This document shows, piece by piece, positions 256-10,501 of a DNA stretch of 10,759 nt. The number at the start of each line of letters is the position of its first letter. Position 1 is the first letter of the stretch. The stretch comes from Burkholderia gladioli (GTDB taxonomy: Bacteria; Pseudomonadota; Gammaproteobacteria; Burkholderiales; Burkholderiaceae). The notes beneath the pieces are model-generated. The model saw only the letters and a list, made by a program, of their open reading frames with translations. It had not been told where the DNA came from and searched no databases. Both the position numbers and the translations under genes were made by a program. The stretch spans positions 1-10,759 of the forward strand of contig WNEB01000033.1 of NCBI GenBank assembly GCA_009914575.1, written 5' to 3'.

Positions 256-266
256 CCGTATATATT
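232..266 (+). promoter_or_regulatory. possible IS-derived outward promoter for the phosphonate operon
   Basis: An AT-rich TATATATT at 259-266 is the only good -10-like sequence ahead of the first operon gene. TTGCAC at 232-237, inside the putative IS30 repeat, resembles a -35 box. The spacing of 21 bp or more is longer than ideal. A start site 6-8 nt after 266 would fall at or next to the ATG at 273, giving a nearly leaderless mRNA. The sequence is suggestive but weak, and the native promoter may have been lost or displaced by the insertion. Confidence 0.25.
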
Positions 267-272
267 CCGCCG

Positions 273-935
273 ATGGACCAAAGAAAATTCATCGCGCCGC
301 CGCCTCCCCGCACGTGGGATGCGCGGCTCGCGCGCAGGCTCGTCACGCCGCTCGTCGACACGCCCGCCGCCCCGAACCACCTGACCACGCTGCGCCTGCT
401 GATCGGCCTCGCGGGGGCTGTCTGCCTCGCCCAGGGCGGCTTCGGCTGGATCAACGCCGGCGCGTTCCTGATCGTGCTGTCGAACTTCGTCGATCACACC
501 GACGGCGAACTGGCCCGCATCAGCGGCAAGACCAGCAAGATCGGCCACTTCTACGATCTCGCCAGCGACGCGGTGATCACCGTCGCGCTGTTCGTCTGCA
601 TGGGCGCGGGCGTGGTGGCGCAAGGCGGCCACATGTTCGCGTCGCCGGTGCTGCTCGGCACGGTGGCCGGCGCGGTCGTGGCGCTGATCTTCTTCCTGCG
701 CATGCGCATCGAATCGTTCGCCGGCAAGGCCGGCACCAAGCAGGCCTCGATCTGCGGCTTCGAAACCGAAGACGTGCTGTACCTGCTGCCCATCGTCACG
801 CTGCTCGACGGCGTCGAGCGGTTCGTCCTGGCCGCAGCGATCGGCGCGCCCGTGTTCGCGGCCTGGGTCGTGATCGATTACTGGCGCGTCGTGCGCCGCG
901 GCGCCGTGCCGGCCGCCGACACCCCGAAGGCCTGA
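273..935 (+). CDS. CDP-alcohol phosphatidyltransferase family membrane protein
   Basis: The 220-residue protein belongs to the CDP-alcohol phosphatidyltransferase superfamily, whose members displace CMP from a CDP-activated donor with an alcohol acceptor at the inner membrane. The complete signature D-x2-D-G-x2-A-R-x8-G-x3-D-x3-D is present. D74, D77, G78, A81-R82, G91, D95 and D99 are all in place, so the Mg-binding catalytic site looks intact. Hydrophobic segments lie near residues 40-73, 100-118, 124-146, 173-188 and 190-212. The ATG at 273 is the only start possible after the in-frame stop at 246-248, and no clear Shine-Dalgarno precedes it. The stop is 7 bp before the oxygenase start, so the two genes are one transcription unit. 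Placed with PEP mutase, Ppd, PhnW and nucleotidyltransferases, it most likely transfers aminoethylphosphonate from CMP-AEP to a lipid or glycan acceptor. That role is inferred from context; the family is clear. Confidence 0.88.
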   Translation: MDQRKFIAPPPPRTWDARLARRLVTPLVDTPAAPNHLTTLRLLIGLAGAVCLAQGGFGWINAGAFLIVLSNFVDHTDGELARISGKTSKIGHFYDLASDAVITVALFVCMGAGVVAQGGHMFASPVLLGTVAGAVVALIFFLRMRIESFAGKAGTKQASICGFETEDVLYLLPIVTLLDGVERFVLAAAIGAPVFAAWVVIDYWRVVRRGAVPAADTPKA

Positions 936-942
936 CCATTCC

Positions 943-1750
943 ATGAGTACCCAGACAGAAGCCGGATTCGAACCGCGCGCCAGCGCCCCGGCCACCGGCC
1001 ACGCCGCGTCCGGCAGCGCCGACCGCGCCGTCTCCGGCGCCGCCGCCGCGCTCGATACCGATCATCTGCATCGCGAATTCGACCGCCAGGGCGCGTTCAT
1101 CCATCTGAAATCGTTCCTGCCGCCCGACGCCTCGCAGCGCCTGGCCGACCTCGCGCGCGCTGCTGCCCGACGTCAACCGGAACTACCTGCCCGGCCACAA
1201 GCAGGGCGGCAGCGTCAGCCGCCACACGATCGACGAGAAAGCGCCGTTCATCGCCGAGCTGTATCGTTCGCCGGCGCTGATCGCGTTCCTCGAAAAGCTG
1301 ACCGGCGACACGCTGCAGGTGTCGCCCGCCGACGATCCGCACGGCTACGCGCTCTACTACTACACGAAGCCGGGCGACCACATCGGCTGGCACTACGACA
1401 CGTCCTACTACGACGGCCGCCGCTACACGCTGCTGATCGGCGTGATCGACGAATCGACCTGCCGCCTCGACTACGAACTGCATACGCGCAACCCGGTCGT
1501 GGCCGACGAGCCCGGCACCACGCAGATCCCCGACGGCGGCATCGTGCTGTTCGACGGCGACAAGCTGCGCCGCCGCATCTCGCCGATGGGCGAAAACGAG
1601 ATCCGCGTGTCGCTGACGTTCGAATACGTGACCGACCCGGGCATGCGCCCGTGGAAGCGCTTCATCTCGAACATGAAGGACGCGATCGCGTATTTCGGCT
1701 TCCGCCAGGTCTTCAAGCAGCTCGCCACGCGGCGCCCCGCCCAGAAATGA
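943..1750 (+). pseudogene. non-heme Fe(II)/2-oxoglutarate oxygenase, frameshifted
   Basis: The N-terminal part is read from ATG 943 (MSTQTEAGFEPR...) to about 1158 in one frame. The rest (LLPDVNRNYLPGHKQGG... to the stop at 1748-1750) is in the next frame. The break lies at a CGCGCGCGC tract (1152-1160), and losing two bases (one CG unit) would explain it. Repaired, the protein has about 269 residues. The C-terminal half has the double-stranded beta-helix of 2OG-Fe oxygenases: HIGWHYD supplies H151-x-D153, and RVSLTFEY supplies the 2-oxoglutarate-binding R222. At the distal iron-ligand position the sequence is DKLRRRISP, with Arg (about R211) where His is expected. In this operon the enzyme may have hydroxylated the phosphonate or the modified lipid; the substrate is not readable from sequence. 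The N-terminal 40 residues are Ala-rich and of low complexity. The stop overlaps the next start (ATGA). The frameshift could be a sequencing error. Confidence 0.72.
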
Positions 1751-2745
1751 CGCGCGCCGGAATCGTCCTGCTGTCCATCGGGACGGCACTGTTCATCGCC
1801 CTGCTGTCCTGGCAGGGCTTCGGCGCTGTGGTCTCCACGCTGGCCACGGCCGGCTGTGGGCTGCTGCTGGTCGCCGCGTTCCACCTGATCCCGCTGGTGG
1901 TCGATGCGCGCGCGATCGCCGTGATGTTCCCGCGCGGCACGCCGGGCGTGTCGACGCGCGAGACGCTGTTCGCGCGCTGGGTGCTCGAATCGGTCAACAG
2001 CCTGCTGCCGGTCGGCCAGATCGGCGGCCCGGTGCTGATGGCGCGCTACCTGTCGCAAAAGGGCGTGCCGATACCGCGCGCGGCGGCGGCCGTCACCGTC
2101 AGCACCGCCATGCAGGCGCTCGCGCAAATCCTGTTCGCGCTCGGCGGCATCGCCGTGTTCAGCTTCGGCGCGAACAGCGCGGCGGCCACGCACCTGCGCA
2201 CGCCGGCCCTGATCGCCACCGCCCTGCTCGGCGCCTGCGCGTTCGGCTTCTATCTGGCGCAGCGGCGCGGCCTGTTCGGCCGGGGCCTGCGGATGGTGTC
2301 GAAGGCGCTCGGCCCGCGCGACTGGCCGTCGCTGGCCGCGCGCGCCGACGCGATCGACGCGGCCGTCGGCGAGCTGTACGGCACGCGCAACCGCGTGATC
2401 GCCACGTTCTGGTACAGCTTCGGCGGCTGGCTGCTCGGCACCGGCGAAGTGTGGCTCGCGCTGCACTTCCTCGGCCATCCGGTCAGCTGGGTCGATGCGC
2501 TGCTGCTCGAAAGCGTCGGCCAGGCGATCCGCGGCGCGGCGTTCATGATTCCCGGTTCGCTCGGCGCGCAGGAAGGCGGCTATCTGCTGCTGGCACCGCT
2601 CGTCGGGCTGCCGCCGGACGCGGCGCTCGCGCTGTCGCAGGCCAAGCGCGAGCGCGAGCTCGCGCTCGGCCTGCCCGGCATTCTGTATCTGCATTTCAGC
2701 GAAAGAAACTGGCTGCGGCGCCGTGCGCCGCAGCTCGCGGACTAG
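1747..2745 (+). CDS. UPF0104 / lysylphosphatidylglycerol-synthase-like (HpnL-type) membrane protein
   Basis: The 332-residue polytopic inner-membrane protein belongs to the UPF0104/LPG-synthase transmembrane family, now often called flippase-like and including the hopanoid-associated HpnL. Hydrophobic segments lie at about 5-21, 35-52, 114-140, 152-170, 216-240, 255-275 and 278-290. Family-type motifs are visible: NSLLPVGQIGGP at 84-95 and PGSLGAQEGGY at 269-279, with the buried Gly and Glu residues usual there. It lacks the soluble acyltransferase-like domain of true MprF. Its ATG overlaps the oxygenase stop (ATGA at 1747-1750), which indicates translational coupling. Next to a CDP-alcohol transferase it may move a phosphonate-bearing lipid across the membrane, but that is inference. 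It lies in the same reading frame as the oxygenase N-terminal fragment, so no stop separates them in that frame. Confidence 0.85.
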   Translation: MTRAGIVLLSIGTALFIALLSWQGFGAVVSTLATAGCGLLLVAAFHLIPLVVDARAIAVMFPRGTPGVSTRETLFARWVLESVNSLLPVGQIGGPVLMARYLSQKGVPIPRAAAAVTVSTAMQALAQILFALGGIAVFSFGANSAAATHLRTPALIATALLGACAFGFYLAQRRGLFGRGLRMVSKALGPRDWPSLAARADAIDAAVGELYGTRNRVIATFWYSFGGWLLGTGEVWLALHFLGHPVSWVDALLLESVGQAIRGAAFMIPGSLGAQEGGYLLLAPLVGLPPDAALALSQAKRERELALGLPGILYLHFSERNWLRRRAPQLAD

Positions 2746-2829
2746 GGCCAGCCCGCGCCGTGCCTGGCGGGCGAACCCTCGGTCGGACCGCATCCGGCCA
2801 AGTAACCATTACATAGCGTGGAGTATTCA
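2746..2829 (+). other. largest intergenic gap inside the phosphonate operon
   Basis: These 84 bp are the only real spacing inside the operon. They contain a weak inverted repeat, GCCCGC (2751-2756) with GCGGGC (2767-2772), without a T-tract. An AT-richer stretch around 2801-2815 (AGTAACCATTACATA) could hold a weak promoter but has no convincing -35 box. A clear ribosome-binding site, GGAG at 2820-2823, sits 6 nt before the ATG at 2830. Confidence 0.4.
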
Positions 2830-3597
2830 ATGCGAGCCATCATCCTGGCCGCGGGCCTCGGCCTGCGCCTGCAACTGCCTCCCGAAGCACAGTATCCGAA
2901 GTGCCTGCTGCGCTTCGACGACGTGTCGCTGCTCGAGCGCCACCTGCGCCTGCTCGAATCGCTCGGCGTGACGGAAATCGTCCTCGCGCTCGGCTTCCAG
3001 CACGAAAAGGTCGAAGCCGAACTGGCCCGCCTCGGGCGCAAGGCCGAAATTGTCCTGAACCCCCGCTTCGATCTCGGCAGCGTGCTGACCGTCCACACCG
3101 CCGCCGACGCGCTCACGCGCGGCGGCGACGTGCTGCTGATGGACGCCGACGTGCTGTACGACGACAGCATCATTCAGGCGCTGGTCGCCAACCCCGAGCA
3201 GGCGGTCGACCGCCTGCTGATCGACCGCGATTTCGAGGCCGGCGACGAACCGGTCAAGCTCTGCGTGAAGGACGGCGTGCCCGTCGAACTGCGCAAGCAG
3301 CTCGCCGTCGATCTGCAATACGACACCATCGGCGAATCGGTCGGCTTCTTCCGCTTCAGCGAAGGCACGGCCCGGCGTCTCGCCAAGATCGTCGCCGGCT
3401 ACGTGGACTCGGGCCGGGCCAACCTGCCCCACGAGGAAGCCGTGCGCGACCTGCTGCTCGAAGGCGACCGCACGTTCGACGTCGCCGACGTGACCGGCGC
3501 CCCGTGGATCGAAATCGATTTCCCGAACGACGTCGCCCGCGCGGCTGACGAAGTTCTCCCGCTGATTCAGCGCAATACCGTAGGAGCCGCACGATGA
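2830..3597 (+). CDS. stand-alone nucleotidyltransferase (PntC/LicC-like cytidylyltransferase)
   Basis: The 255-residue sugar-phosphate-type nucleotidyltransferase has a Rossmann fold that joins an NTP to a phosphate or phosphonate. It begins [14 protein letters not shown], giving the nucleotide-binding LAAG-x-G-x-R motif (G9, G11, R13), followed by P23-K24. The metal-binding LMDADVLYD has D105 and D107. Near the end [13 protein letters not shown] matches the C-terminal W-x-EID pattern of LicC-like cytidylyltransferases. ATG 2830 is preferred over the upstream GTG at 2818, because GGAG at 2820-2823 is spaced 6 nt from it. The stop overlaps the PEP mutase start (ATGA). PntC of Treponema denticola is the characterised 2-AEP cytidylyltransferase of this general type, so CMP-AEP synthesis from CTP is the best guess. 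A phosphorylated alcohol as substrate is the main alternative. The family is certain; the substrate is inferred. Confidence 0.86.
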
Positions 3598-5279
3598 ACG
3601 CACGCGAACCGAACAACTTCACCGAATCCCGCGCCGCGCGGCTGCGCCGCATGCTGACGAGCAACCAGCTCGAATTCCTGATGGAAGCGCACAACGGCCT
3701 GTCCGCGCGCATCGTGCGCGAAGCCGGCTTCAAGGGCATCTGGGGCTCGGGCCTGTCGATCTCGGCCGCGCTCGGCGTGCGCGACAACAACGAAGCGAGC
3801 TGGACCCAGGTGGTCGACGTGCTCGAATTCATGGCCGACGCCAGCGATCTGCCGATCCTGCTCGACGGCGACACCGGCTACGGCAACTTCAACAACATGC
3901 GCCGCCTCGTGCGCAAGCTCGAACAGCGCGGCATCGCCGGCGTCTGCATCGAGGACAAGCAATTCCCCAAGACGAACAGCTTCATCGACGGCGAACGCCA
4001 GCCGCTCGCCGAAATCGACGAGTTCGCGGGTAAGATCAAGGCCGGCAAGGATTCGCAGACGGATTCCAACTTCTCGATCGTGGCGCGCGTGGAAGCGCTG
4101 ATCGCGGGCTGGGGCATGGACGAGGCGCTGCGCCGCGCGCACGCCTACGCCGACGCCGGCGCCGACGCGATCCTGATGCACAGCAAGCTGTCGCGCCCGG
4201 ACGAGATCCTCGAATTCGCGCGCCAGTGGAACAACCGCGCGCCGATCGTGATCGTGCCGACCAAGTACTACAGCACGCCGACCGACGTGTTCCGCCAGGC
4301 CGGCATCAGCACCGTGATCTGGGCGAACCATCTGGTCCGCTCGTCGGCTGCCGCGATGCAGGCCACCGCGCGCGACATCTTCGAGAACGAAACGCTCGTC
4401 AACGTCGAGGACCGCGTGGTCACCGTCAACGAGATCTTCCGCCTGCAGGACGCCGACGAATATTCGTCGGCCGAGCGCATCTACCTGTCGTCGTCGCGTT
4501 CGTCGAACTCGGCCATCGTGCTGGCGGCGAGCCGCGGCAAGGGCCTGGAAGCCGTCACCGAAGACCGGCCGAAGGTCATGCTGCCGGTCGCCGGCAAGCC
4601 GCTGCTGCGCTGGATCGTCGACGGCTTCAAGAAGGAAGGCGTCAACGACATCACGGTGGTGGGCGGCTATCGCGCCGACGCGATCGACTCGGCCGGCATC
4701 AAGCTGGTCGTCAACGAGCGCCACGCCGAAACCGGCGAGCTGAGCTTGCTGGCCTGCGCGCTGGGCAAGGTCAAGGGCGACACGATCGTCTCGTACGGCG
4801 ATCTGCTGTTCCGCAGCTACATCGTGCGCGACCTGGCCGAAAGCGACGCCGAATTCACCGTGGTGGTGGATTCCTCGCTGACCGATTCGACCAACCAGAG
4901 CGTGCGCGACTTCGCGCTGTGCTCGTCGGCCGACGACCGCGGCCTGTTCGGCCAGAAGGTCACGCTGCAGCGCGTGGCGAGCGACGCCGGCAACGGCGCG
5001 CCGCACGGCCGCTGGGTCGGCCTGCTGAACGTGCGCGGCGCGGGCGTCGAACGCCTTAAGGCCGCCGTGGCCACGCTGCAGGCGCGCCCCGATTTCGACC
5101 AGTTCGACATTCCGGCGCTGCTCAACGCGCTCGTCGACGCCGGCGAGAAGATCGCGGTGCAATACGTGCACGGCCACTGGCGCGGCGTGAACGACCTCGA
5201 CGAATTCCGTCGCGCCGGCGATTTCGCGCACGGCCAGACGCCGCTCGCGAACGGCGCCGCCGCCCGGGACGCGCAATGA
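3594..5279 (+). CDS. aepX: phosphoenolpyruvate mutase fused to a nucleotidyltransferase domain
   Basis: This 561-residue two-domain enzyme makes the C-P bond. Residues about 20-285 are PEP mutase, which isomerises PEP to phosphonopyruvate. The diagnostic EDK-x5-NS motif is exact ([10 protein letters not shown], residues 120-129), the metal-binding DGDTGYGN is at 91-98 and WGSGLS at 50-55. Residues about 306-550 form a nucleotidyltransferase domain ([14 protein letters not shown] from S306, then [15 protein letters not shown] and [11 protein letters not shown]). Its loop differs from the textbook LAAG-x-G-x-R: Ser313 replaces Gly and Gly317 stands where Arg is usual. The domain may be a specialised subfamily or catalytically altered. 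Such fusions are known in phosphonate clusters and tie C-P bond formation to CMP activation. Start choice is firm: TAGGAG at 3581-3586 lies 7 nt before the ATG. ATGA overlaps join it to the gene before and the gene after. Confidence 0.95.
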
Positions 5280-6424
5280 TCGAGGCAGCCCAGTTCGTCG
5301 AAACCGCGCGCGCGCGCGGTTTCGATTCGTACGCGGGTGTGCCCTGCTCGTATCTGACGCCGTTCATCAATTACGTCCTGCAGGATCCGTCGCTGCACTA
5401 CGTGTCGGCGGCCAACGAGGGCGACGCCGTCGCGCTCGCGGCCGGCGCCACGCTGGGCGGCCGGCGCAGCATCGCGATGATGCAGAATTCCGGCCTCGGC
5501 AACGCGGTCAGCCCGCTGACCTCGCTGACCTGGACCTTCAAGCTGCCGCAGCTGCTGATCGTCACCTGGCGCGGCAAGCCCGGCGAGCACGACGAGCCGC
5601 AGCACGCGCTGATGGGGCCGATCACGCCGCAGATGCTCGACACCATGGAGATCCCGTGGGAGCTGTTCCCGACCGAGGCCGAGCAGATCGGCCCGGCGCT
5701 CGACCGCGCGATCGCGCACATGGACGAAACCGGTCGGCCCTACGCGCTGGTGATGCAGAAGGGCAGCGTGGCCGCCTATCCGCTCAAGGATGCGCCGATG
5801 CCCGCGCCGCGCCCGCACGTCGTGCCGGCGGCCGCAGCCGGCGCAACGGCCGAGCTGCCGTCGCGCCATGACGCGCTCGCGGTCGTGATCGCGCGCACGC
5901 CGCTCGATTCGGCCGTGGTGCTGGCCTCGACCGGCTTCTGCGGGCGCGAGCTGTATGCGCTCGACGACCGCGCCAACCAGCTATACATGGTCGGCTCGAT
6001 GGGCTGCGTGACGACGCTCGCGCTCGGCCTCGCGCTGGCGCGCCCCGACCTCGCCGTGGTGGCCGTCGACGGCGACGGCGCCGCGCTGATGCGCATGGGC
6101 GCGTTCGCCACGCTCGGCGCCTACGGCCCGAAGAACCTGATCCACCTGCTGCTCGACAACGGCGCGCACGAATCGACGGGCGGCCAGTCCACCGTCTCGC
6201 CGTGCGTGTCGTTCGCGGCCGTGGCCGCGGCCTGCGGTTACGCGTCGGCGCGCGAAGGCGGCCTGGAAGCGATCGACGCGCTGTTCGCCGAGCCGGCCGA
6301 TGGCGCGCGCTTCGCCTGCGTCAAGATCCGCACCGGCGTGCCCGACGGGCTGCCGCGCCCGACCGTGACGCCGGTCGAAGTGAAGGAACGTCTGATGCGC
6401 CACATCGGCGCGGGAGCCCAATGA
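5276..6424 (+). CDS. aepY: phosphonopyruvate decarboxylase
   Basis: The 382-residue thiamine-diphosphate enzyme converts phosphonopyruvate to phosphonoacetaldehyde and CO2, the irreversible step that pulls the unfavourable mutase reaction forward. The pyrimidine-domain Glu is E48 ([12 protein letters not shown]). The family stretches [13 protein letters not shown] near the N-terminus and [15 protein letters not shown] are present. The diphosphate- and Mg-binding motif runs from GDG (266-268) to D294-N295 ([10 protein letters not shown]). Length equals the usual value for the family. A low-complexity Ala/Pro linker at about 170-195 joins the two TPP half-domains. ATG 5276 overlaps the mutase stop (ATGA). 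A perfect 26-bp palindrome starts 22 nt into the gene (separate entry). Confidence 0.95.
5298..5323. repeat. perfect 26-bp palindrome in the 5' end of the decarboxylase gene
   Basis: TCGAAACCGCGCG is followed directly by its reverse complement, CGCGCGGTTTCGA, with no spacer. It encodes part of ETARARGFD near the N-terminus. The mRNA could fold into a stem of about 11 bp with a 4-nt loop, starting 22 nt after the ATG. It may be a chance product of Ala/Arg codons in GC-rich DNA. Confidence 0.6.
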
Positions 6425-7491
6425 TGCTGTTGCTCAATCCCGGCCCGGTCACGCTGACCGAGCGCGTGCGCCGGAGCCTGCTGCAAACCGATCTCTGCCA
6501 TCGCGAAAGCGAGTTCTTCGACCTGCAGGACGAAGCGCGCACGCGCCTCGTCGCCGCCTACGATCTCGACCCGGCCGAATGGCAGGCCGTGCTGATGACG
6601 GGCTCCGGCACCGCCGCGGTCGAAAGCATGATCGCCGCGCTGGCGCCCGAGGACGGCAAGCTGCTCGTGATCGAGAACGGCGTGTACGGCGACCGCATCG
6701 CGCAGATCGCGAAGCAATACCGGATCGCCCACGAGGCGCTCAAGCACGAGTGGATGGACGCGCCCGATCTCGGTCGCATCGAGGCCGCGCTGGCCGCCGA
6801 TCGCGCCATCACGCACGTGGCCGTGATCCATCACGAAACCACCACCGGCCGCCTGAACGCGCTCGGCCCGATCGCCGAGCTGTGCCGCCGGCACGGCGCG
6901 CGCCTGCTGGTGGACGGCGTCAGCAGCTTCGGCGCCGAGGCGCTCGATTTCGCCGACGGCGTGACCGACGCCGTGGCCGCTACCGCCAACAAGTGCCTGC
7001 ACGGCGTGCCCGGCGCGGCGTTCGTGATCGTGCGCAACGCGGCGCTGGCGCGCGCCGCGAGCCGCACCTATTACCTCGATCTCGGTCGGCTCGCCAAGCT
7101 GCAGGCGCAGCGCAACACGCCGTTCACGCCGTCGGTGCACGCGTATTACGCGCTGGTCGAGGCGCTGCGCGAGTTCGAGGACGAAGGCGGCTGGCAGGCG
7201 CGTCACGCCCGCTACAAGGCGCTTGCCGATCAGGTGCGCGACGGCCTGGCCGCGCGCGGCATGTCGCTGGTGCTGCCCGACGGCGAATCGTCGGCGGTGC
7301 TGCGCGCCTACACGCTGCCAGCCGGGGTCGGCTACGACACGCTGCACGACGGCCTCAAGGCGCGCGGCTTCGTGATCTACGCGGGCCAGGGCGGGCTGTC
7401 GGCCTCGCTGTTCCGCGTGTCGACGATGGGCGCGATCGCGCCGACCGACATGGATCGCCTGCTCGAAGGCTTCAGCGCGCTGACGCGTTGA
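6421..7491 (+). CDS. phnW: 2-aminoethylphosphonate--pyruvate transaminase
   Basis: The 356-residue class V PLP aminotransferase interconverts phosphonoacetaldehyde plus alanine and 2-AEP plus pyruvate. In this operon it runs toward 2-AEP, completing the three-step pathway from PEP. The start LLLNPGPVTLTERVRRSLL and LCHRESEFFDL are typical of PhnW. GSGTAAVESM binds cofactor phosphate, D165 in LLVDGVSSFGAE pairs with the PLP ring nitrogen, and K191 in ANKCLHGVPG forms the Schiff base. Length is normal. Two ATGs are adjacent (6421 and 6424). The first gives the ATGA-type overlap with the decarboxylase stop, while the second has better spacing (7 nt) from GGGAG at 6412-6416. PhnW can also serve 2-AEP breakdown, but the mutase and decarboxylase upstream argue for synthesis, and no phnX is present here. 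A strong terminator follows 30 bp after the stop. Confidence 0.95.
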   Translation: MMLLLNPGPVTLTERVRRSLLQTDLCHRESEFFDLQDEARTRLVAAYDLDPAEWQAVLMTGSGTAAVESMIAALAPEDGKLLVIENGVYGDRIAQIAKQYRIAHEALKHEWMDAPDLGRIEAALAADRAITHVAVIHHETTTGRLNALGPIAELCRRHGARLLVDGVSSFGAEALDFADGVTDAVAATANKCLHGVPGAAFVIVRNAALARAASRTYYLDLGRLAKLQAQRNTPFTPSVHAYYALVEALREFEDEGGWQARHARYKALADQVRDGLAARGMSLVLPDGESSAVLRAYTLPAGVGYDTLHDGLKARGFVIYAGQGGLSASLFRVSTMGAIAPTDMDRLLEGFSALTR

Positions 7492-7521
7492 TGCGCCGCT
7501 TCGCCGGTTCGACGGCATGAC

Positions 7522-7554
7522 GCAAAACGGACGCCTCGGCGTCCGTTTTGCTTT
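7522..7554 (+). terminator. rho-independent terminator of the phosphonate operon
   Basis: GCAAAACGGACGCC (7522-7535) pairs perfectly over 14 bp with GGCGTCCGTTTTGC (7538-7551), with a TC at the tip, and is followed by TTT. The T-run at 7546-7549 mirrored by the A-run at 7524-7527 could act in both directions. It isolates the operon from the FUSC gene. Confidence 0.88.
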
Positions 7555-7701
7555 GTTGCGGTGCGTCGCGTTAATACGGGGAGGCGCGGCCGGGCCGATC
7601 CATTAATTAGAATCGTCCGAACGTGCGATGCGCGCGGTCGGCAGCCGCGGCGCGCCCATCGCGACCTTCCACGCGAGCGCCCTGCCTTCACGTTGCCCGT
7701 C
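7555..7701 (+). promoter_or_regulatory. upstream region of the FUSC gene with a possible -10 box
   Basis: About 150 bp lie between the terminator and the FUSC start, with no gene. An AT-rich island, CATTAATTAGAAT (7601-7613), contains TAGAAT at 7608-7613 as a plausible -10 element. I do not see a good -35 box at the right distance. Position, after a terminator and before the next operon, is the main support. Confidence 0.3.
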
Positions 7702-8757
7702 ATGACCGCATCTCCGCCGCTCCGTCTGCCCGCCGCCCTGCGCGCGCTGTTCCGCCCGCTGCTCGATCCCTATCGCCGTTACCGGCACGCGAAGCTGATC
7801 CACGCGGCGCGCGTCGCGCTCAGCGTGCTGGTGTCGATCGCACTGTCCACCGGGCTCAATATACCGCACGGCGAATGGTCGTCGATCACGGTGCTGATCG
7901 TGATCGGCGGGCTTCAGCATCACGGCAACATCCGCAAGAAGGCGGTCGAGCGCGCGCTCGGCACCACCATCGGCGCCGTGGCCGGGCTGGCGCTGATCGT
8001 GCTGCAATCCACGCTGCATGTGTCGATCGTCACGTACCTGGTGATGAGCGTGCTGTGCGGGCTCTGCGCCTACTACGCGATCGGCAAGGCCGGCTATGTC
8101 GCGCTGCTGTCGGCGATCACGATCCTGATCGTGGCCGGGCACGGCGACAACGAGATCGTCGACGGGCTGTGGCGCGCCGTGAACGTGATCGTCGGGATCG
8201 GCATCGCGCTGGCGTTCTCGTTCGCGCTGCCGCTGTACGCCACCTATTCGTGGCGCTACAAGCTTGCCGATTCGCTGCGCGCCTGCGCGGTGGTGCATGC
8301 GCGGATCGTCAGCGACACCGCGCACCTGAAGGAGATGGCCGCGCTGAACGCGCTGCTGGTGCAGATGCGCTCGCTAATGCCGTGGGTGTCGAAGGAAACC
8401 GACATCACGATGGCGCAGCTCGACGCGATCCAGCGCTCGCTGCGGCTCGTGATCAGCTCGCTCGAAATGCTGGCGAGCGTGCAGCCCGCCGACGGCGACG
8501 TGGCCGGCCGCCATTACGTGCAGACGGCGCAGCGCCCGCTGAACCGCCGCATCCACGGCCTGCTGATCGGGCCGAGCCGCGCGCTCAAATTCGGCACGCT
8601 GGCGCGCCTGCAGCCGCTGCCGGCCGTCGGCGCCCCGACCGACGGCGAGGTGCCCGCGCAGTTGTCGGGCTTCGTGTCGATCAACGACAAGATCGCGCGC
8701 GAATGCGACGTGATGCGCCAGCGCGTGCAGGACGTGGCGGCGCAGTGGTACATCTGA
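7702..8757 (+). CDS. FUSC-family inner-membrane protein
   Basis: This protein of about 351 residues has an N-terminal cluster of membrane segments (about 36-54, 60-72, 88-104, 107-127, 130-146 and 158-182) and a C-terminal helical soluble part. The pattern ERALGTTIGAVAGLAL (83-98), following a WSSITVLIVIGG segment, is typical of the FUSC/aromatic-acid-exporter superfamily (YccS, AaeB relatives), of which this is a short one-block form. Some relatives export aromatic acids or other small acids; the substrate here is unknown. ATG 7702 (MTASPPLRLP) is preferred. The frame is open upstream to 7561, but those residues are Arg-rich out-of-context sequence across the promoter region. It is separated by a terminator from the phosphonate genes and probably has no link to them. 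The DUF1801 gene follows after 24 bp and is probably co-transcribed. Confidence 0.8.
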   Translation: MTASPPLRLPAALRALFRPLLDPYRRYRHAKLIHAARVALSVLVSIALSTGLNIPHGEWSSITVLIVIGGLQHHGNIRKKAVERALGTTIGAVAGLALIVLQSTLHVSIVTYLVMSVLCGLCAYYAIGKAGYVALLSAITILIVAGHGDNEIVDGLWRAVNVIVGIGIALAFSFALPLYATYSWRYKLADSLRACAVVHARIVSDTAHLKEMAALNALLVQMRSLMPWVSKETDITMAQLDAIQRSLRLVISSLEMLASVQPADGDVAGRHYVQTAQRPLNRRIHGLLIGPSRALKFGTLARLQPLPAVGAPTDGEVPAQLSGFVSINDKIARECDVMRQRVQDVAAQWYI

Positions 8758-8781
8758 CGCGACACGCTCAAGGAACCGAAC

Positions 8782-9203
8782 ATGGCCACGAAGGCTCCCG
8801 CCGCCGGTGAAGAGATCGACGCCCGCATCGCCGAACTCGGCGACTGGCGCGGCGACGTGCTGGCCCGCATGCGCGCGCTGATCCGCCAGGCCGCGCCGGG
8901 TGTCGTCGAGGAATGGAAGTGGCGCGGCACGCCGGTGTGGTCGCTCGACGGCATCCTGTGCACGGGCGAATCGTACAAGGCGGTGGTCAAGCTGACGTTC
9001 GCCCAGGGCGCGGCGCTGGCCGATCCGGCCGGGCTGTTCAACGCGAGCCTGGACGGGGCAAGGTGCGGCGCGCGATCGACATCCGCGAAGGCGAGACGGT
9101 GGACGACGCCGCGTTCGTCGCGCTGATCCGGGCGGCCGTCGCGCTCAATCAAGCGAAACGGACGAGCCGGCAGGCCAAGGCCAAGCGGACTAAAGCCGAC
9201 TAA
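8782..9203 (+). pseudogene. DUF1801-domain protein, single-base frameshift
   Basis: The start MATKAPAAGEEIDARIAELG and the stretches VEEWKWRGTPVWS and YKAVVKLTFAQGAALAD, then LFNASLDG, match the DUF1801 (YdhG-like) fold, whose biochemical role is unknown. After the GGGG run at 9055-9058 the frame changes. The expected C-terminus (VRRAIDIREGETVDDAAF...) appears in the -1 frame and ends at the stop at 9201-9203. In the original frame translation runs into unrelated sequence and stops at 9126. Loss of one base (for example GGCGGC to GGGGC) explains it. Repaired, the protein has about 140 residues, normal for the family, with a Lys-rich tail (QAKAKRTKAD). An AAGGA ribosome-binding site sits 7 nt before the ATG, and the FUSC gene ends 24 bp upstream. 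A sequencing or assembly error is an equally good explanation. Confidence 0.72.
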
Positions 9204-9248
9204 AGCGGCGCAATGAACCCGCGCGCGCCGGCCGCGTTCCTCAAGTGC

Positions 9249-10407
9249 TCAATACCGCGACAACCGGTTTCCGGCATCGATCCGCACGCGGTCGCCGGGT
9301 TGCCAGTCGCCCGCGCCGGGCACGTCGAAGCCGCGCATCGTGCCGTCCGAGAGCTGCACGTCGATCCGGTAGCCGGACGACGCGTTCATCTGCTGCCCCA
9401 CCTGATTGCCGACCGCCGCGCCGCCCAGCGCGCAGATCACGGTGGCCGCGCCGCGGCCGCGACCATGCCCGATCTGATTGCCCAGCACGCCGCCCACGAG
9501 CGCGCCGACCACCGTGCCCGCCACGCCCGACGGGCTGGTGCCGCCGCCGATCGGGCGGATCGCCGCGACGGTGCCGTATTGCGCGCCGTAACCGGGCTGC
9601 GCATACGACGGCTGGCCATAGCCCGGCTGCGACGGTTGCGCGCCGTAGGGCTGCACGCCGGGTTGCGGATACGGCGGCTGGCCGGACGGATCGTCGGGCT
9701 GCCCGTAACCGGGCGGCGGGCTCGGCGGCGGATAGGCGGACGGCGCCGCGTTGCCGGGCTGGCCCGGATAGCCCGGTTAGTTGCCGTTGCCGTAGCCCGG
9801 CTGGTTGCCATAACCGGGCTGACCGGTCTGCGGCGCGTAACCGGGTTGGCCCGGCTGCGGGCCGTCGTCGTCCGAATCGTCGGGCGGCGCCGCGTCGGGC
9901 GGCGGATAGCCCCCCTGTCCGTTCATGTGCGGCGCCGGTTGCGCGCCGCCGTAGCCGGGCTGGCCATATTGCGGTGCGCTCGGCTGCGCCTGATAGGGTT
10001 GCGGCTGATACGGCTGCGCATTCGGTTGCGCGTACAACGGATTCGTCTGGCCGTACGGCGGCGGCACGTAGCCCGGCGCGTCGGCCCCGCGCTGCGGGTA
10101 ACCCGGCTGGGCGGGCTGCGCTTGCGGCGGCGCGCTGACGGGCGGATACGCGGGGGCGCCGTCGTCGTCCCGATTGGAATCGCCCTGCTGCGCCGGCGCA
10201 TAGCCGGGCTGGCTGCCCATATGCACCCTGGCCGCTGCCCACATATTGATCGTTGCCGTCGTACAGGCCGGCCGCGAAACTCGCGCTCGACGGCAGCGCC
10301 AGGGCCACGGGCAGCAGCCAGGCGGCGCGCGCCATCCGCGGCTTCAAGCGCAAACGCAGAGGAGAACGATGCAATGCGCGCAGGGAATCGTAAGGAGTGA
10401 AAGCCAT
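9249..10407 (-). pseudogene. secreted glycine-zipper protein with QPGY repeats, frameshifted and with a nonsense codon
   Basis: The N-terminus holds a signal peptide, MARAAWLLPVALALPSSASFA (ATG 10335), then AGLYDGNDQYVGSGQ. An in-frame ATG at 10407 would add 24 Arg-rich residues, so the start is uncertain. At about 10215-10235 the frame shifts by one. The rest (SQPGYAPAQQGDSN...) is a Pro/Gln/Gly/Tyr-rich region with eight QPGY motifs. A TAA at 9779-9777 interrupts it exactly where a further QPGY would have its Gln, so CAA to TAA is the likely change. The C-terminus is a glycine-zipper domain of the 17-kDa-antigen/SlyB type (GVAGTVVGALVGGVLGNQIG, then GGAAVGNQVGQQM) and ends at 9249. Family members sit in the outer membrane or periplasm. 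With both lesions only a truncated secreted peptide can be made, unless these are sequence errors. It is convergent with the DUF1801 gene, 45 bp away. Confidence 0.7.
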
Positions 10408-10453
10408 CGTCGTGGCGGGCCGCATGCGCCCGCGATCGGGAATAAACGGCACG

Positions 10454-10459
10454 AGTATA
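10454..10459 (-). promoter_or_regulatory. candidate -10 box for the glycine-zipper gene
   Basis: On the minus strand 10459-10454 reads TATACT, five of six matches to the sigma-70 -10 consensus. It lies about 47 nt upstream of ATG 10407 and about 119 nt upstream of ATG 10335. No convincing -35 box is visible 16-18 bp further upstream. Confidence 0.35.
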
Positions 10460-10501
10460 GGGAACGCCCGGCGGCAGCCCCCGCGGATTCGGGTAACGAT
10501 C

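Follow-up and report, generated by a model that had tools for sequence, protein, structure and literature searches.

For most bacterial phosphonate gene clusters a role in cell-surface decoration is predicted, and their later steps are described as largely unknown (PMC6697681). One such cluster, found in a lichen Nostoc and illustrated together with a Burkholderia example, was presented in 2018 as a putative phosphonolipid cluster, with Yu et al. 2013 given the credit; its genes, as listed in the legend of Fig. 7, include a CDP-alcohol phosphatidyltransferase, OG-Fe(II), NTP transferase, pepM, ppd, AEPT and hpnL (PMC5987646). In the passages on this cluster hpnL is called a "putative membrane protein", and no link to hopanoids is drawn. 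Here we analyzed an operon of the same gene kinds at positions 273 to 7491 of a 10,759-nucleotide stretch of Burkholderia gladioli DNA (contig WNEB01000033.1), hereafter the window. We propose that it encodes a hopanoid head-group pathway with a phosphonate as the head group and the hopanoid itself as the acceptor, a reading to which we assign a probability of about 0.6. That the operon is functionally tied to hopanoids in one way or another appears very probable. The initial annotation of the window had regarded the combination as not belonging to a described pathway, which does not hold in view of the 2018 legend; a "novel combination" of genes was rejected for the same reason. As far as the literature searched goes, it is the strong tie to hopanoids that is new for this cluster, the gene set itself being already known.

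Further described systems share parts of this layout. The PntC pathways of Rice et al. 2019 likewise comprise PepM-PF12804 fusions, a second nucleotidyltransferase in some clusters and the CMP derivative of 2-aminoethylphosphonate (AEP), CMP-AEP, as donor; they differ in that the main text, searched by word, contains none of the terms CDP-alcohol, phosphatidyltransferase, Burkholderia and hopanoid (PMC6697681). In a 2021 survey of Acetobacteraceae, pepM was found beside hopene cyclase in Roseomonas and an undiscovered terpene-phosphonate was suggested; this case concerns Alphaproteobacteria, and the passage on it gives no CDP-alcohol transferase, nucleotidyltransferase, HpnL or mechanism (PMC8776678). 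Beyond the Roseomonas linkage, no description of a hopanoid-phosphonate lipid was found in the titles and abstract beginnings searched, a coverage that leaves out most subscription journals. The HpnI-HpnJ-HpnK pathway builds bacteriohopanepolyol head groups and comes with an HpnL paralogue, which falls in a tree group separate from the copy studied here. Its head group is a sugar or cyclitol, in contrast to the phosphonate proposed here. Finally, CTP:inositol-1-phosphate cytidylyltransferase/CDP-inositol phosphotransferase (IPCT-DIPPS) combines a cytidylyltransferase with a CDP-alcohol phosphotransferase by the same logic, and 4mnd was among the matches of our models of the operon's CDP-alcohol phosphotransferase (CDPAP) and stand-alone nucleotidyltransferase (NT1). 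There, both functions reside in one protein, whereas two proteins are encoded here, with pepM neighbors indicating a phosphonate donor.

Gene content and proposed pathway

The description of the operon in the initial annotation was partly confirmed: all seven genes are present on the forward (+) strand and ordered as described, and two corrections were needed. The predicted route to AEP by PepM, Ppd and PhnW is favored. All three family models scored above cut-off. PepM (3594 to 5279; TIGR02320, 409 bits, cut-off 319.55) also contains the EDKX5NS motif in its translation (motif according to PMC6697681). It is followed by the phosphonopyruvate decarboxylase Ppd (5276 to 6424; TIGR03297, 455.7 bits, cut-off 312.5) and the 2-aminoethylphosphonate aminotransferase PhnW/AepZ (6421 to 7491; TIGR03301, 410 bits, cut-off 360.8). 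Successive genes from NT1 through PepM and Ppd to PhnW overlap by four bases.

Both nucleotidyltransferase domains noted earlier are present, one as NT1 (2830 to 3597; PF12804) and one as a PF12804 domain fused to the C terminus of PepM. We propose that NT1 is a CTP:AEP cytidylyltransferase of the PntC type, which would activate AEP to CMP-AEP: the solved structure nearest to its model is PntC, a proven AEP cytidylyltransferase. Compared with the PntC consensus GXG(T/S)RX4-8PK (PMC6697681), the NT1 loop has G9xG11-L12-R13 and P23-K24, departing from it by a Leu in place of T/S and by 9 residues between R and PK. The Arg and Lys of this loop are kept in 74 of 74 sequences. The PepM-fused domain (loop AASRGKGL in the window) gave an ungapped match to LicC. 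None of 81 loop strings of this domain has an Arg at the GXGTR position (Gly in 79, Asn in 2), and the Lys of PK and the metal Asp were found in all 81. Replacing the loop Arg by Ala in Tde PntC left less than 10% of the activity (PMC6697681). We therefore rejected the fused domain, in which this Arg is absent, as the obvious maker of CMP-AEP; we do not call it dead, because its PK Lys and metal Asp are invariant. In residues 310 to 330 of the fusion, AASRGxGL replaces AAGxGTR across Burkholderiaceae, and similar loops occur in much of the class.

CDP-alcohol phosphotransferases carry the signature D-x2-DG-x2-AR-x8-G-x3-D-x3-D. The gene at 273 to 935 encodes CDPAP, the proposed AEP (phosphonyl) transferase, and was correctly taken as intact: PF01066 scored 50.8 bits (cut-off 22), and the signature is complete as D74-x2-D77-G78-x2-A81-R82-x8-G91-x3-D95-x3-D99. 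From D74 to D99 it is invariant in the Burkholderiaceae alignment; D99 is gone from some distant copies. The AlphaFold model (pLDDT 89.5) had as its best solved fold the AF2299 CDP-alcohol phosphotransferase. Second CDPAP copies in two related islands (L201:6408-7013 and L206:8577-9191) are without the fourth Asp (D4), and the other copy lies nearby beside HpnA and HpnN.

The membrane protein encoded at 1747 to 2745 is present as annotated; its label, "UPF0104-type", had to be changed, as this LPG_synthase_TM/flippase-like protein belongs to the hopanoid-associated subfamily HpnL (TIGR03476, 350.7 bits, cut-off 195.65). HpnL scored above cut-off in 39 of 39 genomes. At 67 HpnL loci outside the operon, HpnI was present in 47 and HpnI, HpnJ or HpnK in 59; four of the eight loci without any of these lie near contig ends. 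A tree of 55 HpnL proteins contained 25 rows of phosphonate-linked Burkholderiaceae copies (the window's HpnL in this clade), 13 HpnIJK copies and 12 members of a third set linked to HpnI/HpnJ, the three groups being separate with 100/100 support each. Because HpnL stands beside HpnI/J/K elsewhere, it seems to accompany hopanoid head-group pathways. A role as a mere generic flippase was rejected, its other copies being found mostly with HpnI/J/K. A 2025 study of Alphaproteobacteria reports that hpnH-free genomes are also without hpnL, and treats the functions of hpnA, hpnB and hpnL as open, that of hpnL being not established (PMC12583986).

In the pathway we propose, PepM, Ppd and PhnW would produce AEP and NT1 would convert it to CMP-AEP. 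CDPAP, a membrane enzyme, would then move AEP from CMP-AEP onto a hopanoid hydroxyl, the hopanoid being most likely a bacteriohopanepolyol, and HpnL would carry the resulting phosphonohopanoid across the membrane. A 2OG-Fe(II) oxygenase (OX), intact in relatives, could act in an optional step, hydroxylating either AEP or the finished product. We infer the substrate specificities, the acceptor and the direction of transport from the gene families, their catalytic motifs, their linkage and the restriction of CDPAP described below.

Association with hopene cyclase and hpn genes

Co-occurrence was counted in a class sample (369 genomes), a family sample (172) and a phylum sample (349), the window's own genome standing outside the counts. 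CDPAP was accepted at E<=1e-20 in the class sample and E<=1e-15 in the phylum sample, and hopene cyclase as TIGR01507 above cut-off. The cyclase was found in 41/41 tested genomes with these phosphonate genes. The class sample held CDPAP in 20 genomes, the cyclase in 52 and pepM above cut-off in 27. All 20 CDPAP genomes had the cyclase (hypergeometric tail 2e-19) and 19 had pepM (1e-24), and 21 of the 27 pepM genomes had the cyclase (4e-15); none of these tails is corrected for shared ancestry. When the pepM open frame comprised at least 497 residues, the cyclase was present in 21/23 genomes, and it was present in 0/4 of the other pepM genomes, whose frames span about 440 residues and whose PepM is only 33-35% like the window's. 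HpnH, the enzyme responsible for the extended side chain of hopanoids, was above cut-off in 19/20 CDPAP genomes versus 0/6 cyclase-free pepM genomes. In the family sample, CDPAP was found in 92 genomes and the cyclase above cut-off in 112, with an overlap of 91/92; the 92nd CDPAP genome (G878) contains two cyclase fragments. The phylum sample yielded CDPAP matches in 15 genomes, and all 13 that were newly tested contained cyclase sequence (10 above cut-off, 3 as fragments). Within the samples searched, CDPAP is restricted to genomes with hopene cyclase sequence, in some of them as fragments.

Physical linkage to hopanoid genes was observed as well. In Pandoraea iniqua, NCBIfam models gave the order operon-dxs-HpnN, a 215-residue protein, ispH-HpnH-HpnA-HpnB, then HpnG-hopene cyclase-HpnE, and tblastn found the same genes in Pandoraea capi and Pararobbsia alpina. 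Most hpn assignments in loci L125 to L250 were made by tblastn with proteins of Pandoraea and B. ubonensis that are themselves named by NCBIfam. The cyclase lies 18-39 kb from CDPAP on one contig in 19 of the 92 CDPAP genomes of the family sample. Among the 21 class-sample genomes with pepM and cyclase, pepM is at most about 12 kb from HpnH or the cyclase in nine (rough chance 2e-11), and its stretch contains HpnA, B, G, H, N or the cyclase in 11, one of which rests on a 31% HpnG match only. Two class-sample loci (L232, L233) show the order HpnB-HpnH-dxs-PhnW-Ppd-PepM-NT1-HpnL-HpnA-HpnN-HpnG-SHC. With HpnI, J and L counted, CDPAP shares its stretch with some hpn gene in 16/19 class-sample genomes other than G035, the stretches without one being those of G052, G126 and G160. 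The gene dxs, for isoprenoid precursor synthesis, adjoins PhnW in Pandoraea (L072:12006-13922), Pararobbsia and six class-sample loci (L232-L237).

Conservation of the operon was examined in the best 80 of 557 loci with a PepM fusion, gene presence being counted by tblastn; these loci come from Burkholderia, Paraburkholderia, Caballeronia, Trinickia, Cupriavidus and Pandoraea. At 44 of the 80 loci, CDPAP, OX, HpnL, NT1, PepM and Ppd stand in the window's order, with PhnW also in view in 39 of them, and this recurrence of gene order is far beyond chance. Another 35 loci, mostly of Paraburkholderia, are split and contain PepM-Ppd (PhnW in 34) without CDPAP, OX and HpnL nearby; the remaining one (L021) is a 3.4-kb contig. 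A CDPAP orthologue with 70-77% identity was found elsewhere in the genome in all 34 split-operon genomes searched (L037 left out). CDPAP-OX-HpnL-NT1 stood together in 20/20 split-operon stretches taken at 17-19 kb, and CDPAP-OX-HpnL also in 12 shorter ones. The phosphatidyltransferase and the "UPF0104" gene, which the initial annotation had joined to pepM in one pathway, are accordingly conserved with it in the neighborhoods of PepM-nucleotidyltransferase fusions. Since the CDPAP cassette accompanies the PepM genes even when the two are apart, the operon is composed of two co-occurring modules: a PepM module predicted to make AEP and, as the putative user of AEP, the CDPAP-OX-HpnL-NT1 cassette.

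By eye, the genes adjoining the split-off cassette seem unrelated, no family search having been made. Two Paraburkholderia with a split operon have partial NT1 remnants upstream of PepM (L028 near 7885, L045 near 7831), and at eight other split-operon loci a longer NT1 match remains in this place, which would fit a duplication of NT1 at the split. A plasmid search returned 23 records (Cupriavidus 11, Mycetohabitans 7, Burkholderia 4, Rhizobium 1); only the four Burkholderia replicons matched the whole operon, and the Mycetohabitans match covers PepM to PhnW only. Protein searches showed close kin among the best 120 of 2328 and the best 120 of 3122 matches.

The acceptor of the phosphonate

The initial annotation had inferred CMP-AEP and transfer to an envelope lipid or glycan, an interpretation that is partly supported overall. 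The lipid is backed by the similarity of NT1 to PntC, the catalytic motif of CDPAP and the gene neighborhoods; the glycan finds no support in the operon's genes.

The main rival to a hopanoid acceptor is an ordinary phosphonolipid, formed from CMP-AEP and diacylglycerol as a phosphono analogue of phosphatidylethanolamine in a Kennedy-type reaction, with HpnL flipping the product and hopanoids as companions only. We consider it a possible reading of clearly lower probability. CEPT1 belongs to the fold family of CDPAP (rank 19 among its fold matches), and a phosphonolipid pathway was proposed for the homologous cluster of Nostoc and Burkholderia in the figure mentioned above, with DAG, AAG and HAEP among its abbreviations (PMC5987646). 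Such a pathway leaves unexplained why CDPAP occurs only in genomes with cyclase sequence (20/20 and 92/92), why it stands beside HpnA or HpnN elsewhere and why it is paired with HpnL.

Several observations weigh against the hopanoid as acceptor. Apart from HpnL, no hpn gene was found in the flanks (up to 8 kb) at 77 of the 80 loci, and the tie in Burkholderia proper therefore rests on HpnL and co-occurrence. The remaining 10 of the 21 class-sample genomes with pepM and cyclase show no counted hpn gene near pepM, some of the contigs being shorter than 16 kb. Two genomes (G205, G373) contain pepM and cyclase and no CDPAP at E<=1e-20, and two others (G409, G253) have a PepM fusion without the cyclase, their NT1 being only 27-28% alike and CDPAP giving no match. 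Presence and absence are confounded by the small size or incompleteness of many cyclase-free genomes, and co-occurrence does not prove that a hopanoid is the substrate. Eight phylum-sample genomes contain weak CDPAP homologues and cyclase sequence with pepM absent, so that the cassette is not strictly tied to phosphonates. An NT1-like gene (26%) accompanies HpnL and HpnN at two of these pepM-free loci (L231, L228); the cassette thus seems able to serve head groups of other kinds. L231 is a hopanoid island, possibly for another hopanoid head group. Distant CDPAP homologues (L225, L227, L229, L231) have an extra N-terminal region resembling a divergent nucleotidyltransferase, as read by eye in these four frames.

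Alternatively, the phosphonate could be added to a hopanoid that already bears another group, the immediate acceptor being a sugar or cyclitol hydroxyl. CDPAP homologues beside HpnJ, HpnI or HpnL in three loci (L212, L215, L216) would fit this scheme, which we consider improbable: other CDPAP loci have HpnA or HpnN and no HpnI/J/K in the stretch examined, and the operon has no glycosyltransferase match. Least likely is that the product is a glycan of the cell surface or a small phosphonate for secretion, the latter already argued against in the initial annotation: glycans modified with AEP are known, and certain phosphonates, such as fosfomycin, are antibiotics (PMC6697681), but family searches matched no glycosyltransferase, LicD-type transferase or peptide ligase among the operon's own genes, whose conserved members are instead a membrane transferase and HpnL.

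Returning to the hopanoid acceptor, a broader proposal has odds that we place only slightly above even. In phosphonohopanoids, a dedicated CDP-alcohol phosphotransferase would join (hydroxy)aminoethylphosphonate to bacteriohopanepolyol through an ester link; these lipids would be common in Burkholderiaceae and occur sporadically among the other Pseudomonadota that produce hopanoids. NT1, CDPAP and HpnL would serve as a cassette for phospho- or phosphono-diester hopanoid head groups in general, with pepM giving the version with a carbon-phosphorus bond. Hopanoids are the bacterial counterpart of cholesterol, and the carbon-phosphorus bond is rare. The tie of a common PepM cluster type to hopanoids offers a concrete acceptor to test and a possible role for HpnL. 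If true, membrane lipids across the six genera named above would carry a phosphonate, and this unusual, possibly new kind of membrane lipid might be overlooked by ordinary phospholipid or hopanoid surveys.

The oxygenase and the flanks of the operon

A close relative of the window's strain is Burkholderia sp. Ac-20379 (locus L001), with a PepM identity of 98%. Comparison with its intact oxygenase (269 aa, L001:5348-6157) and the open reading frame list showed OX to be broken in the window, its N-terminal piece lying at 943 to 1180 (end approximate) in frame 1 and its C-terminal, catalytic piece at 1319 to 1750 in frame 2. The iron oxygenase of the initial annotation is thus not intact in the window. 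Of the H-x-D...H site, the catalytic half keeps H-x-D, with an Arg in place of the distal His. All 44 relatives, L001 included, have this half as one open frame with HYD and the distal His, and four intact relatives were HalD/BesD-like (PF23169, 43-51 bits, cut-off 26). The metal triad in a single open frame, by which we judged HalD/BesD-like proteins, is lacking in the window's OX. The gene is doubly broken, by the frame change and the loss of the distal metal His, with neighboring genes open; this may reflect real decay or poor sequence. OX matches are present in some related islands (L201, L208, L210, L244) and were not found in others; for this reason, and because the gene is broken here, we regard its step as optional. 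From the broken gene, the unhydroxylated form would be expected as the product of this strain, if the operon is expressed.

The window's DNA is similar to L001 over positions 256 to 10501 and does not align with it before 256. Positions 151 to 258 resemble Cupriavidus sequence annotated as IS30-like in three records, and the end of an insertion sequence therefore seems to sit directly upstream of the operon. Downstream and outside the operon lie genes for a FUSC-family membrane protein (7561 to 8757) and a DUF1801 protein (8782 to 9126). Among the 80 loci both are found only in L001, and L025 has a FUSC match in its flank.

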